Origin: Candidatus Falkowiibacteriota bacterium
GTDB lineage: Bacteria; Patescibacteriota; Patescibacteriia; UBA11705; JABHMO01
DNA: 48,448 bases
NCBI GenBank assembly: GCA_018693855.1
Contig: JABHMO010000036.1
Location: 1-48,448, forward strand
Direction of reading: 5' to 3'
Under the pieces are notes generated by a model. The model worked only from the letters and a program-made list of their open reading frames with translations, made no database searches and was not told the DNA's origin. Of the stretch, positions 14,124 to 35,946 are shown one piece after another. The position numbers and the translations under genes were made by a program. How positions within the stretch are numbered: position 1 is the stretch's first letter; the number at the start of each line of letters is the position of its first letter.

Positions 14124-14241
14124 TTATAAACAGTAACACTTGCATTTATTTAATTATGGGTATATACTTATTATCATATCACGTAGCATATGGTACGTAA
14201 CATAAAAATAATAATTCAAATCTAAATCATTATTCAAAACT

Positions 14242-17593: not shown

Positions 17594-17640
17594 TAGCCAA
17601 ATAAAAAAGATCTTACAGTATTGATAGCCAAATAAAAAAG
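17568..17640. repeat. 31-bp tandem duplication spanning a stop codon
   Basis: AAATAAAAAAGATCTTACAGTATTGATAGCC repeated at exact 31-bp spacing. Confidence 0.9.
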
Positions 17641-17677
17641 ATAACCGAGAATGCGCATTCTCGGTTATCTTTTTTTA
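17640..17677. terminator. bidirectional intrinsic terminator
   Basis: GATAACCGAGAATGCGCATTCTCGGTTATC perfect inverted repeat between convergent genes, A-rich and T-rich flanks. Confidence 0.9.
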
Positions 17678-17685
17678 TAGCACTA

Positions 17686-19332
17686 TTAAATCAATGGTAA
17701 TTTCGTCTCTTTATCCATGGCCGCTTTGATAAATGAGTTAAAAAGTGGATGCCCTTTCGTTGGCCGAGACTTAAACTCTGGATGAAACTGACAAGCAACA
17801 AAGAAAGGGTGATCAGGCACTTCAATAATCTCAACTAACTTTCCATCAGGAGATGTCCCCGCAAACTTCAAACCATTCTCTTCCAATCGTGGTCTATACT
17901 CATTGTTAACTTCGTACCGATGTCTATGTCGTTCAGTAATATCTTTCTGACCATAAGCAGCAAAACTCTTAGAATCTTCAGCTAGAGTACATGGCCAAGA
18001 ACCGAGCCTCATAGTTGACCCGTATTTACCTTGCTCAATATTTTCAATCTGCTCAGGCATAATATGAATAACTTGATTTGGAGCATTTTTATCAATCTCA
18101 GTTGATGTAGCATCCATGATTCCACATTTATTTCTAGCAAACTCAATTGTTGCTAATTGTAATCCGTAACAGAGACCTAAAAATGGAATATTATTTTCTC
18201 TTAAATACTGAATTGCCTTAATCTTACCTTCAATCCCTCGTGATCCAAACCCACCAGGAATAATCACACCATCATATTTCTGTAATTCAATTAATTTTTG
18301 AGGATCTTCTTCGTATGTCTCTGAATTAATCCACTCAATAACAGGTTTCTTCTCAAAATGCCAACAAGCATGTTTTACTGCTTCAATAACTGAAATATAT
18401 GAATCTGAAAGCACGAACTCACCAGTTCTGAAATACTTACCAACAATACCTATTTTAACTTCGTCTTCCGCCTTTAATATAACATTGTTAAGTTTTTCCC
18501 AATCACCAATACCTGGAGCGTCTGGTCTTGTTGCCCAGCCAAATACTTTCAATAACTTTTCAGCAACATGCTCTCTATTAAAATTAATTGGAATCTCATA
18601 AATAGAACCAACATCTGGTGCAGAAATTATATGATCAGGAAAAATATTGCCTTGAATACCAATCTTTTCTTTTCTAACATCATCAAGAGGTTTTTCACTT
18701 CTACACAACACAAAATCAGGTTGTATTCCGACAGAATTTAATGTTCTAATAGCATACTGAGTTGGCTTTGTTTTCATTTCACCTACCTTGGAAGGAACTG
18801 GTAAATAAGAAACCAAAATAAATTGAACATCATGAGAATTTTGCATCTTCATCATTCTAGCTGCTTCTAGGAAAAGTACGCTTTGATACTCACCAACTGT
18901 TCCACCAATCTCAACCATCATAATATCAGATTCAGTGTCTCTGGTAGCTTTTGTTATTCTACGAATAATTTCTTCAGGAATATGCGGGACAACCTCTACA
19001 CATTTACCACCGTACTCAAGATTTCGTTCCTTTTCAATCACAGACTGATAAACTCTACCAGTTGTCATGTAATTTGTAGATAAAATATTTGTATCCAAAA
19101 ACCGCTCATAGTTCCCAATGTCCTGATCAGTTTCATCACCATCTTCCGTAACAAAAACTTCTCCATGTTCTGTTGGATTCATTGTTCCTGCGTCAACGTT
19201 GATATAAGGATCCACTTTTATAGCACTTACTTTATATCCTTTTCCTTTTAATAAACGACCAATTGTTGCACAAGCAACACCCTTTCCAACACCACTCATA
19301 ACACCACCGACAACGAAAATAAATTTAGACAT
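17686..19332 (-). CDS. pyrG: CTP synthase
   Basis: MSKFIFVVGGVMSGVGKGVACATIGRLLKGKGYKVSAIKVDPYINVDAGTMNP; GLCYGLQ amidotransferase motif. Confidence 0.98.
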   Translation of the reverse strand: MSKFIFVVGGVMSGVGKGVACATIGRLLKGKGYKVSAIKVDPYINVDAGTMNPTEHGEVFVTEDGDETDQDIGNYERFLDTNILSTNYMTTGRVYQSVIEKERNLEYGGKCVEVVPHIPEEIIRRITKATRDTESDIMMVEIGGTVGEYQSVLFLEAARMMKMQNSHDVQFILVSYLPVPSKVGEMKTKPTQYAIRTLNSVGIQPDFVLCRSEKPLDDVRKEKIGIQGNIFPDHIISAPDVGSIYEIPINFNREHVAEKLLKVFGWATRPDAPGIGDWEKLNNVILKAEDEVKIGIVGKYFRTGEFVLSDSYISVIEAVKHACWHFEKKPVIEWINSETYEEDPQKLIELQKYDGVIIPGGFGSRGIEGKIKAIQYLRENNIPFLGLCYGLQLATIEFARNKCGIMDATSTEIDKNAPNQVIHIMPEQIENIEQGKYGSTMRLGSWPCTLAEDSKSFAAYGQKDITERHRHRYEVNNEYRPRLEENGLKFAGTSPDGKLVEIIEVPDHPFFVACQFHPEFKSRPTKGHPLFNSFIKAAMDKETKLPLI

Positions 19333-19394
19333 AATTTTTCACGTATCATATATCACTTAGCACGTAGCAATCGTTACGTGCTATGAGTTACGTG

Positions 19395-19829: not shown

Positions 19830-20053
19830 AGAATAAGGAGGCTATACGGGGCCAGCCCGCAATGTCTACGCATAGCGTTGCTGGCGGGCTAAACGAGGCC
19901 TTTAATAAATTATATTAATAAAAAAGAGAGCCTAAAATAGACCCCCTCCCTTAAAATTGTAAGTTACTTAGTTTATAGTGAATATGAAGTTTATACAGGA
20001 TATACAGGGTATAAAGGTTATTAAGTTACATATTATAGTAATAACTTTGCTCA

Positions 20054-20125
20054 CCCTGCCCGCAGTGCTACAGCGTTGCCCGCCTGCTACGATATAGCAT
20101 TTCGGGCAGGCAGGCGGGCTTAATT
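20054..20125. repeat. GC-rich palindromic interspersed repeat, long form
   Basis: CCCTGCCCGCAGTGCTACAGCGTTGCCCGCCTGCTACGATATAGCATTTCGGGCAGGCAGGCGGGC. Confidence 0.85.
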
Positions 20126-20137
20126 TCAACTCAATAT

Positions 20138-20172
20138 CCCTGCCCGCAGTGCTACAGCGTTGCAGGCGGGCT
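20138..20172. repeat. GC-rich palindromic interspersed repeat, short form
   Basis: CCTGCCCGCAGTGCTACAGCGTTGCAGGCGGGC. Confidence 0.85.
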
Positions 20173-20221: not shown

Positions 20222-21427
20222 CTATTTTAACAAATCTAAAGCTTTTTGTAACTGCGGATCGACTTCGTTATCCACATCTTCCTTAGTGTATTCAACTTCA
20301 TGATCTGGATTGATTCCTTCACCGTCGATGACTCTGTCTTTTGGTGTTAACCATTTTGCAACAGTTACTTTTACAGATGAACCATCTGGCAACGTCTTCA
20401 AAACTTGAACTGAACCTTTACCGAAGGTCTTTTTTCCAATTAGTTCAGCAATTCCATGATCTTGTAATGCACCAGCAACAATCTCGGCTCCAGAAGCACT
20501 TCCTTGATTAATAAGAGCTACAGTTGGGATATCTCCAAACACAGTGCCTGTACTAGCAACGTGTAACTCTTCTGTACCATCACCAAACTTTTCTTTAACA
20601 ACAACTGATCCGTCTAACCACAGCGAACTAACATTAATCGCGGAATCAAGAAGTCCACCAGGATTATTTCTCATATCTAAAACCATTCCTTTAATCGGTT
20701 TATTTTTCACTTCATTAACCATCTTTTGAATTAATGACATTGTATCTGTCCCAAAAGCATTTAACTCTACATATAGAATTTGATCGTCTTGATATTCCCA
20801 TTTCACACTTTTCAATTCAATAACGTCCCGAGTTATAATAATTTCCATTGGTTCATTGTCGCCACGAACTATTAATAGCTTCACATCAGTACCTCTTGGT
20901 CCACGAATCTTTCTAGCAACTGAATCAATACTCTCACCAATCACTTCCTCGTCATCTACTGAAATAATTTTATCACCTGCTTCTAAACCAGCTCTTTCAG
21001 CTGGAGAACTGTCAATTGGAGAAACAACTGTTGTAAATCCATCTCTGATTGCAATTTCAGCACCAATCCCTTCAAACTCACCATTAATCTGAATCTCAAA
21101 CTCCTCAGTGGTTGGTGGATCTAAAAATACAGTATATGGATCCCCTACGCCATCAACAAAACCACGCAATGCACCATAGTACAGCTCATCTTTTTCAATA
21201 TTCTCTATATCAACGTAATCTTCATTAATAATACTCCAAACCTGTTTAATCAAATCACTTTCAAACAACTCTGGTAACTCAGTCTTATGGATGTAATCAG
21301 GATTAATGTTCAATCTCAATTTATTATCAGTCAATTTCCCAACAAAATATCCTGTCAAAAAGATTCCCCCAATCACAAAAATCACAAGTAAACTAATAAT
21401 TACCTTTAATGTCTTATTATTCTTCAT
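20222..21427 (-). CDS. S41 family C-terminal processing peptidase with PDZ domain
   Basis: GIGAEI..PDZ, DMRNNPGGLLDSA, NQGSASGAEIVAGALQDH, GKKTFGKGSVQ. Confidence 0.95.
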   Translation of the reverse strand: MKNNKTLKVIISLLVIFVIGGIFLTGYFVGKLTDNKLRLNINPDYIHKTELPELFESDLIKQVWSIINEDYVDIENIEKDELYYGALRGFVDGVGDPYTVFLDPPTTEEFEIQINGEFEGIGAEIAIRDGFTTVVSPIDSSPAERAGLEAGDKIISVDDEEVIGESIDSVARKIRGPRGTDVKLLIVRGDNEPMEIIITRDVIELKSVKWEYQDDQILYVELNAFGTDTMSLIQKMVNEVKNKPIKGMVLDMRNNPGGLLDSAINVSSLWLDGSVVVKEKFGDGTEELHVASTGTVFGDIPTVALINQGSASGAEIVAGALQDHGIAELIGKKTFGKGSVQVLKTLPDGSSVKVTVAKWLTPKDRVIDGEGINPDHEVEYTKEDVDNEVDPQLQKALDLLK

Positions 21428-21514
21428 ATTTTTTCACGTAACACATATCACGTAGCACGTAACATATAGCACGTAGCATAACAATTATATAATAATTAAA
21501 TAATGATAGAACAA

Positions 21515-21664
21515 ACAAGGGGTCTGGGGGGCGACTGTTTAAGCGTCGTTGATCAACACGCTAAAAGTAGCTAAATAGAACATAGTGAGTTTTAGCCCCC
21601 CAGCGGTTTTGGTTACTTTTGGCGGCAAAAGTAACTCGAACGAGAGTTCGAAGGTCATTACCCA
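21515..21664. repeat. dispersed structured element, copy A
   Basis: ~150 bp similar to 26187-26340; nested inverted repeats. Confidence 0.85.
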
Positions 21665-22943: not shown

Positions 22944-23178
22944 AAATCGCAAGGTGGCTAAACGGGGCTAAACGAGGCTAAGAAGAAGCCAGATAACCCG
23001 ATTACTCATTATTAATTTTGGGTTCTATAATACTTCAATTCTAGCATATTATTTACATAATTACAAAACTTGAATTTTTTGCTATTTTATCATATAATTT
23101 ACTCAGATTTATCATTATAATACATTCATTTACGAATAAGGGGATTGAGTTAAAATTAAGGATATAAAGTTGAAATTG

Positions 23179-23247
23179 AGCCCGCCTGCCTGCCCGAAAT
23201 GCTATATCGTAGCAGGCGGGCAACGCTGTAGCACTGCGGGCAGGGTA
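23179..23247. repeat. GC-rich palindromic interspersed repeat, long form, inverted
   Basis: Reverse complement of 20054-20125 unit. Confidence 0.85.
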
Positions 23248-23335
23248 AGAAAAGTTATAACTACTGCGATTTTCATGGTCTTGAGCGTAGTCGAAAGGCT
23301 TCGATTCACTTCCATTTACTTCGATTCACTAAAAT

Positions 23336-26186: not shown

Positions 26187-26340
26187 CCAAGGGGTCTGGG
26201 GGGCGACTGTTTAAGCGTCAACAATCAACACCACGAAAAACGCTAGATAGTACATAGTGAGTTTTAGCCCCCCAGCAGTTTTTGGTTACTTTTTGCTGCC
26301 AAAAAGTAACTCGACCGAGAGGGCGAAATCTATTCCCCAC
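26187..26340. repeat. dispersed structured element, copy B
   Basis: ~150 bp similar to 21515-21664. Confidence 0.85.
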
Positions 26341-32131: not shown

Positions 32132-32196
32132 AAGACAAAGAAGGCTATAGGAGGCGAATGAGGCCAACTCTATATCCTCAATTTTAACTTAATATC

Positions 32197-32229
32197 CCTG
32201 CCCGCAGTGCTACAGCGTTGCAGGCGGGC
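32197..32229. repeat. GC-rich palindromic interspersed repeat, short form
   Basis: CCTGCCCGCAGTGCTACAGCGTTGCAGGCGGGC with same AT flanks as the 20138 copy. Confidence 0.85.
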
Positions 32230-32256
32230 TTAATTTCAACTCAATATTCTGACTCC

Positions 32257-35884: not shown

Positions 35885-35896
35885 AATTCTCGAAAT

Positions 35897-35932
35897 AAAA
35901 TAACCGAGAATGCGCGTTCTCGGTTATTTTTA
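35897..35932. terminator. bidirectional terminator, near-copy of the 17640 terminator
   Basis: AATAACCGAGAATGCGCGTTCTCGGTTATT between convergent genes. Confidence 0.85.
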
Positions 35933-35946
35933 TTAAAATTGTTCTT

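Follow-up and report, generated by a model that had tools for sequence, protein, structure and literature searches.

A dispersed non-coding element family of Patescibacteria with a covarying fold and a proposed triple-helix pseudoknot

Introduction

The core pseudoknot of telomerase RNA is of the H-type: its U-rich loop 1 occupies the major groove of stem 2, which is rich in U-A pairs, and C+.G-C triples are allowed. Among dispersed repeats, the bcr1-type repeats of Bacillus cereus are about 150 bp long, have a conserved RNA-like fold and show mobile behaviour; to our knowledge no triplex pseudoknot is known in them. Bacteria also contain intrastrand triplex DNA repeats such as BoxC and TM-ECO, and class IV of the survey describing them, which covered stems of 6-15, has the order Hoogsteen-pyrimidine, pyrimidine, purine in one strand (Holder et al. 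2015, PMC4666352). Repetitive extragenic palindromes (REP) and bacterial interspersed mosaic elements (BIME), together with the REP-associated tyrosine transposases (RAYT), are short structured repeats found between genes in many copies per genome (PMC2817692, PMC3116915, PMC3733652). Here we describe an element present in two copies, A and B, in a 48,448-nucleotide contig of a Candidatus Falkowiibacteriota bacterium (JABHMO010000036.1, assembly GCA_018693855.1; the whole stretch is hereafter called the window). Both copies are members of a previously unnamed family of dispersed non-coding elements, about 120-150 bases long and located between genes of Patescibacteria, of which about 150 copies were compared.

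We denote the successive parts of the element as P1 (a long stem-loop), the linker, loop 1 (a pyrimidine run), P2 and P3 (two hairpins). Like BoxC and TM-ECO, it is a dispersed, multi-copy repeat that combines a hairpin and a third strand within one strand, and it has the class IV order. However, its 3-7 triplets fall mostly below the surveyed range of stems, and it differs in that a T/A-rich pyrimidine motif is joined with a pseudoknot and with a conserved P1 domain of 70-80 nt. Its predicted topology matches the telomerase RNA pseudoknot in placing loop 1 within the stem 2 major groove, but the element has no link to a reverse transcriptase, no recognised template region, and is multi-copy. 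Unlike REP/RAYT pairs, it does not flank a RAYT and occurs in genomes that lack a Y1 transposase. It resembles bcr1 in size, dispersal, the conservation of an RNA-like fold and suggested mobility, while its sequence and fold are unrelated. Few triple-helix pseudoknots occur in nature, and in this family the covariation of base triples can be read from sequence alone. The family could serve directly to test triplex prediction, is a structured RNA or DNA family to be annotated, and offers a lead towards a copying system in Patescibacteria. In this lineage, whose very small genomes leave little room for junk, roughly one in four of the genomes sampled carries the element.

Distribution of the element family

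A sequence-only reading of the window had pointed out two copies of a structured element, and both were confirmed by sequence and by covariance model (Table 1), with E-values of 2.8e-21 for copy A and 3.3e-23 for copy B, which both belong to the training set of the model. The chance expectation of GGGGTCTGGGGGGCNACTG is 0.01 occurrences. The genome-wide search proposed in that reading, performed by BLAST within the genome and with a covariance model built from P1 and P2 only (model R2), uncovered at least 14 copies in the ~1-Mb host genome of the window (G000). These copies can be grouped into three subfamilies, comprising A, B, C16, C10, C45, and C48a (subfamily 1), C32, C11, C10b, and C47 (subfamily 2), and C14, C9, C6, and C48b (subfamily 3). 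Copy B and C48a (G000:C48) are 98% identical over 120 nt, and their surroundings are unrelated.

Among 285 related genomes, model R2 gave matches in 74 at E <= 0.01 (best 6e-24), where the copy numbers per genome are lower bounds, since at most 13 candidates were scored in each. A search for the strict architecture in every GTDB r220 contig returned 12 stretches, and the informative labels were Patescibacteria except for one Clostridiales-labelled bin. The strict pattern was absent from IMG/VR, which argues against viral spread. No Rfam 15 family reached its gathering score in the element (only tRNAs in the flanks did), searches at relaxed thresholds gave nothing credible for it, and literature searches did not find the family described.

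Conserved fold and covariation

With 149 matches, the predicted structure of the family is strongly supported. Two-sided changes were found in 13 of the 17 P1/P2 pairs, and 94.5% of the cells pair (105 distinct matches). The covariation score of P1 and P2 together was 0.451, compared with 0.141 after shuffling (0 of 500 shuffles reached the score) and 0.04-0.06 with slid partners, in an alignment that was fitted to the covariance model and is thereby biased towards it. An ungapped set of arms, cut around fixed motifs, confirmed the covariation of P1 (again, 0 of 500 shuffles); P2 is nearly invariant in this set, since the search motif prescribed its 5' arm. The unpaired parts that are conserved are the leading GGGGT and, within P1, AGCG and GCGnAUU.

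The earlier suggestion that two-sided changes reflect selection on structure, for which two copies alone are weak evidence, is therefore supported by about 150, and the check set out in that reading, for one-sided, structure-breaking changes in further copies, came out in its favour. Its long-range stem exists as CTGGGGGGC/GCCCCCCAG, but the leading GGGGT lies outside the stem. Its third stem covaries among the copies of the host genome (TCGAAC/GTTCGA, TCGCCT/AGGCGA, TCGCAC/GTGCGA, and TCGACC/GGGCGA, the last, that of copy B, with one mismatch), but is absent from some relatives.

In the large alignment, G.U pairs in P1 and P2 exceed A.C pairs (27 vs 8, p = 0.002), which makes the plus strand the probable target of selection. 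This count is a better test than overall pair counts, which are biased when the structure is derived from one strand.

Pseudoknot and triple helix

Two features of the element had been overlooked in the sequence-only reading. The P2 loop is complementary to the 3-4 nt of the linker just 5' of the U-run, and the two are predicted to make an H-type pseudoknot. The linker/loop pairs include AAC/GTT, GAC/GTC, CAC/GTG, CAG/CTG, GCAG/CTGC, GCG/CGC, and AAG/CTT, as well as GGG/CCC, TGG/CCA, ATGG/CCAT, ACAC/GTGT, AGAC/GTCT, CGA/TCG, and CAA/TTG. At least three consecutive Watson-Crick pairs were found in 68% of 66 distinct combinations, compared with 17% after shuffling (maximum 33%; 0 of 2000). Within the host genome, C14 has ATC/GAT and C9, C6, and C48b have ATT/AAT. 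Copy B, which keeps the pairing as GCAG/CTGC, looks intact, whereas copy A, with linker GCGG and loop GGCGGC, looks like a decaying copy that has lost the pseudoknot.

In A, C16, and C45 the P2 loop reads GGCGGC, and genome G003 has its reverse complement, GCCGCC, which pairs with GCGG there. The P2 hairpin of these three copies thus appears as if flipped relative to G003, which would have destroyed the pseudoknot.

Loop 1 is the proposed parallel third strand of a U.A-U / C+.G-C triple helix. The pyrimidine runs are 3-7 long, mostly 4-5 (U3-U7, sometimes with C), and the U-run of loop 1 has the same length as that of P2 in 89% of matches, with a correlation of 0.88 (103 distinct modules; permutation maximum 0.31). 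When the P2 purine strand is set parallel to the third strand, the triplet counts are A:T 332, G:C 11, G:T 0, and A:C 3, so that a G of the purine strand is faced by C in 11 of 11 cases and never by T; the p-value of this triplet-rule test is uncorrected for the relatedness of the copies. Examples are CUUCUUU with AAGAAA (L151-L154, L227), UCUUU with AGAAA (L207, L212, L239), UUCUUUU with AAGAAAA (L223, L238), and CUUUU with GAAAA (L034, L159). A Watson-Crick exchange between the two U-runs would need mirror order and is excluded by asymmetric runs such as CUUCUUU/AAGAAA; because these contradict mirror order, a parallel Hoogsteen third strand is singled out. The change from 4 T/4 A to 5 T/5 A on both P2 arms, reported earlier between copies A and B, is real but incomplete, since three runs change and not two: the U-run of the linker changes along with them, as the triple helix would explain.

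It had also been supposed that part of the element may be known, and triplex-type GTTAC hairpins do occur elsewhere. An IMG/VR contig (L245) has a hairpin that obeys the same triplex rule together with a possible pseudoknot (CGCC/GGCG), and a Clostridiales-labelled contig (L040) has a P1-like part plus a triplex unit. The triplex module may therefore reach wider than Patescibacteria. The triplex-type repeats in L245 (L245:10247-10289) are GGTTACTTTCTTTTG, and similar sequence was observed in L246, a megaplasmid of Ilyobacter polytropus (Fusobacteria), at 7 places.

Mobility and alternative explanations

A related longer form of the element (f123; 140-190 nt, 22 copies aligned, L081-L109, e.g. 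L081:1501-1672) was found in G355, G368, and G325. It has the U-run, P2 and the general idea of the fold in common with the main element, and it has no Rfam match. RNAalifold gave -66 kcal/mol for its plus strand vs -52 kcal/mol for its minus strand, a strand test that is biased by itself. An orthologous junction between two genes, which we take from their open reading frames (ORFs) to be clpP and tig, is filled by this form in G355 and empty in G368, and three G368 contigs end inside copies of it. Its CCGCCAT..TGGCGG stem has a conserved GTTGTCTG apical loop and heavy covariation. Its 3' hairpin is exchangeable, being either of the GTTAC type or of a GCCACC/TGCTACC type, the latter with a loop that pairs back to the linker.

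In the host genome, other palindromes are nested at one identical place in two subfamilies. A CTTGCCTTGCCGAAGCTTATGTAATAGCG palindrome lies at exactly the same spot (TTTT^GG of the linker) in L004, L006, and L010, from two subfamilies, hinting at targeted insertion. The near-identical copies at unrelated sites, the nested palindromes, the contigs that break off inside copies and the empty orthologous site of the f123 form suggest that the element is mobile.

On balance, we favour a non-autonomous, non-coding dispersed element, consisting of a plus-strand P1 stem-loop and a triple-helix pseudoknot, that is recognised in trans and propagated. The plus strand, most likely as RNA rather than as single-stranded DNA, would fold into the long P1 stem-loop followed by the H-type pseudoknot, in which the 3-4 nt after P1 would pair with the P2 loop and the pyrimidine run would lie in the P2 major groove as a parallel third strand. 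Host or mobile-element machinery may recognise this fold in trans and copy the element into further intergenic positions. Selection for propagation would then preserve the fold while the sequence drifts, and copies would persist mostly at sites that are not in front of a gene. What was read directly is the family, both stems, the pseudoknot, the triplex rule, the intergenic, 3'-facing placement, and the presence of several subfamilies per genome. That it represents a new class of bacterial mobile or regulatory RNA, with a telomerase-like triple-helix pseudoknot and a conserved domain, widespread in Patescibacteria and possibly served by RNA-recognising machinery, is a tentative proposal.

Several observations weigh against propagation in trans. 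The empty site is known for the distant f123 form only and not for the subfamily in the window, and f123 copies still follow the same KH-domain gene in both G325 and G355, which fits a host function too. No target duplication was visible by eye at the copies examined, and there are no end-to-end terminal repeats. The pseudoknot pairing is lost in most members of subfamilies 1 and 2 of the host genome. Among the 149 matches there is no recurrent neighbour gene beyond a handful of housekeeping genes, and no element-encoded protein.

A single-stranded-DNA mobile element derived from REP/BIME or IS200/IS605, whose hairpins are recognised in trans by a Y1 (HUH) transposase, is an unlikely alternative that has some evidence in its favour. 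The host genome has three Y1 genes, Y1 is commoner in genomes with strong matches (41 of 50, odds 4.3, p = 6e-5, uncorrected for kinship and genome size), and the missing terminal repeats and target duplication are as in IS200/IS605. However, nine genomes with strong matches have no Y1 (G100, G112, G144, G238, G244, G248, G249, G262, and G275), and neither do G040 and three f123 genomes. In addition, none of 13 Y1 loci examined carried the element, and the Y1 gene on contig C12 is adjoined by other repeats. The Y1-less genomes and element-free Y1 flanks rule out Y1/RAYT as an obligatory driver. At this C12 locus (L024), the gene has its own inverted repeats TCTCGCACACTTTAGTGTGC on its flanks, likely a RAYT/REP pair unrelated to the element.

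Other candidate partners and classes were also considered. The absence of visible terminal inverted repeats and target-site duplication, together with the lack of an Rfam match, speaks against a classical miniature inverted-repeat transposable element, which had been raised as a possible source of the symmetry. An IS605/TnpB omega RNA was dismissed, as a TnpB-type gene was found in 0 of 7 element-bearing genomes, including G000. Reverse transcriptases were present in all of the first seven element genomes and in 46% of relatives overall. Across the match-bearing genomes, RVT_1 was present in 40 of 74 (vs 46% overall, p = 0.14) and missing in 34, so a reverse transcriptase-dependent element has no association behind it. 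Both the Y1 transposase and the reverse transcriptase are dispensable. The reverse transcriptases encountered look like diversity-generating retroelement (DGR) or retron types; one in the host genome (L115, G000:C21:2223-2810), of ~410 aa and unlike the DGR-looking ones elsewhere, is perhaps retron-like. By eye, there was no cassette array and there were no RYYYAAC/GTTRRRY termini as in integron attC sites, and no search aimed at integrases was made.

The genomic placement, in which the counts include a few duplicate loci with two ids each, bears on another doubtful explanation: an RNA or cis element used by the host at gene 3' ends, for 3'-end protection, processing, or as a transcription or replication barrier, that was duplicated and kept by selection. 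Consistent with this, the 3' side of the element points to the 3' end of a gene in 107 of 144 cases, convergent sites outnumber divergent ones (44 vs 10, p = 3e-6), and the copies kept after the KH-domain gene show compensatory changes. However, in co-directional settings the folded strand is mostly antisense to the flanking genes (60 as -E- vs 26 as +E+, p = 0.0003) and therefore outside their mRNAs. The distribution is also patchy and the flanking genes are unrelated. No pathway or cluster is common among the neighbours, which argues against a neighbouring-gene regulon. Of the 149 matches, 13 overlap an ORF of at least 90 aa.

Finally, a BoxC-like DNA triplex repeat, whose sole effect as an unusual DNA structure would be to stall replication and promote rearrangement, is very unlikely: the class IV order (PMC4666352), the nested insertions and the contig breaks at copies fit it, but the conserved P1 domain and the covarying 3-4 bp pseudoknot would be superfluous for a DNA triplex, and the triplet stems mostly fall short of the 6-15 nt that the survey covered.

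Copies A and B and other repeats in the window

Copy A has an EPSP-synthase-family gene on one side and a gene for an S41/Ctp-type protease on the other, and copy B is flanked by genes for a nucleotidyl-transferase and a DUF7544 protein. At each site the two genes are co-directional on the minus strand, so the plus strand of the element is antisense to its neighbours.

Table 1 Positions of the two element copies and of other repeats in the window.
Feature	Position	Strand	Basis
Copy A, whole element (P1, linker, P2, P3)	21519-21651	+	sequence, covariance model
Copy A, conserved GGGGT ahead of P1 5' arm	21519-21523	+	sequence
Copy A, P1 5' arm CTGGGGGGC	21524-21532	+	sequence, covariation
Copy A, P1 3' arm GCCCCCCAG	21595-21603	+	sequence, covariation
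Copy A, linker GCGG, pseudoknot strand; non-complementary to P2 loop GGCGGC	21603-21606	+	
Copy A, loop 1 U-run TTTT, proposed triplex third strand	21607-21610	+	
Copy A, P2 hairpin GTTACTTTT-GGCGGC-AAAAGTAAC	21612-21635	+	sequence, covariation
Copy A, P3 hairpin TCGAAC-GAGA-GTTCGA	21636-21651	+	sequence
Copy B, whole element	26191-26326	+	sequence, covariance model
Copy B, P1 5' arm	26196-26204	+	sequence
Copy B, P1 3' arm	26267-26275	+	sequence
Copy B, pseudoknot strand GCAG, complementary to P2 loop CTGC	26275-26278	+	
Copy B, loop 1 U-run TTTTT, proposed third strand	26279-26283	+	
Copy B, P2 hairpin GTTACTTTTTG-CTGC-CAAAAAGTAAC; second pseudoknot strand in the loop, 26296-26299	26285-26310	+	
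Copy B, P3 hairpin TCGACC-GAGA-GGGCGA, one A-G mismatch	26311-26326	+	
Palindromic repeat CCCTGCCCGCAGTGCTACAGCGTTGCAGGCGGGC	20036-20172		
Palindromic repeat CCCTGCCCGCAGTGCTACAGCGTTGCAGGCGGGC	23160-23263		
Palindromic repeat CCCTGCCCGCAGTGCTACAGCGTTGCAGGCGGGC	32196-32230		
43-nt palindrome AACCGAGAATGCGCATTCTCGGTTA	17633-17675		
43-nt palindrome AACCGAGAATGCGCATTCTCGGTTA	35893-35935		
CACGTAGCACGTAACATAT-type short repeat	14163-14202		
CACGTAGCACGTAACATAT-type short repeat	19330-19369		
CACGTAGCACGTAACATAT-type short repeat	21425-21478		

The window also contains other repeats. The palindromic family CCCTGCCCGCAGTGCTACAGCGTTGCAGGCGGGC has at least four copies, and relatives of it are nested in some triplex elements (L002, L043, L194). 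The two AACCGAGAATGCGCATTCTCGGTTA palindromes are near-identical, have A and T runs alongside, and are probably bidirectional terminators. The CACGTAGCACGTAACATAT-type short repeats occur in several intergenic regions, one of them just left of copy A.
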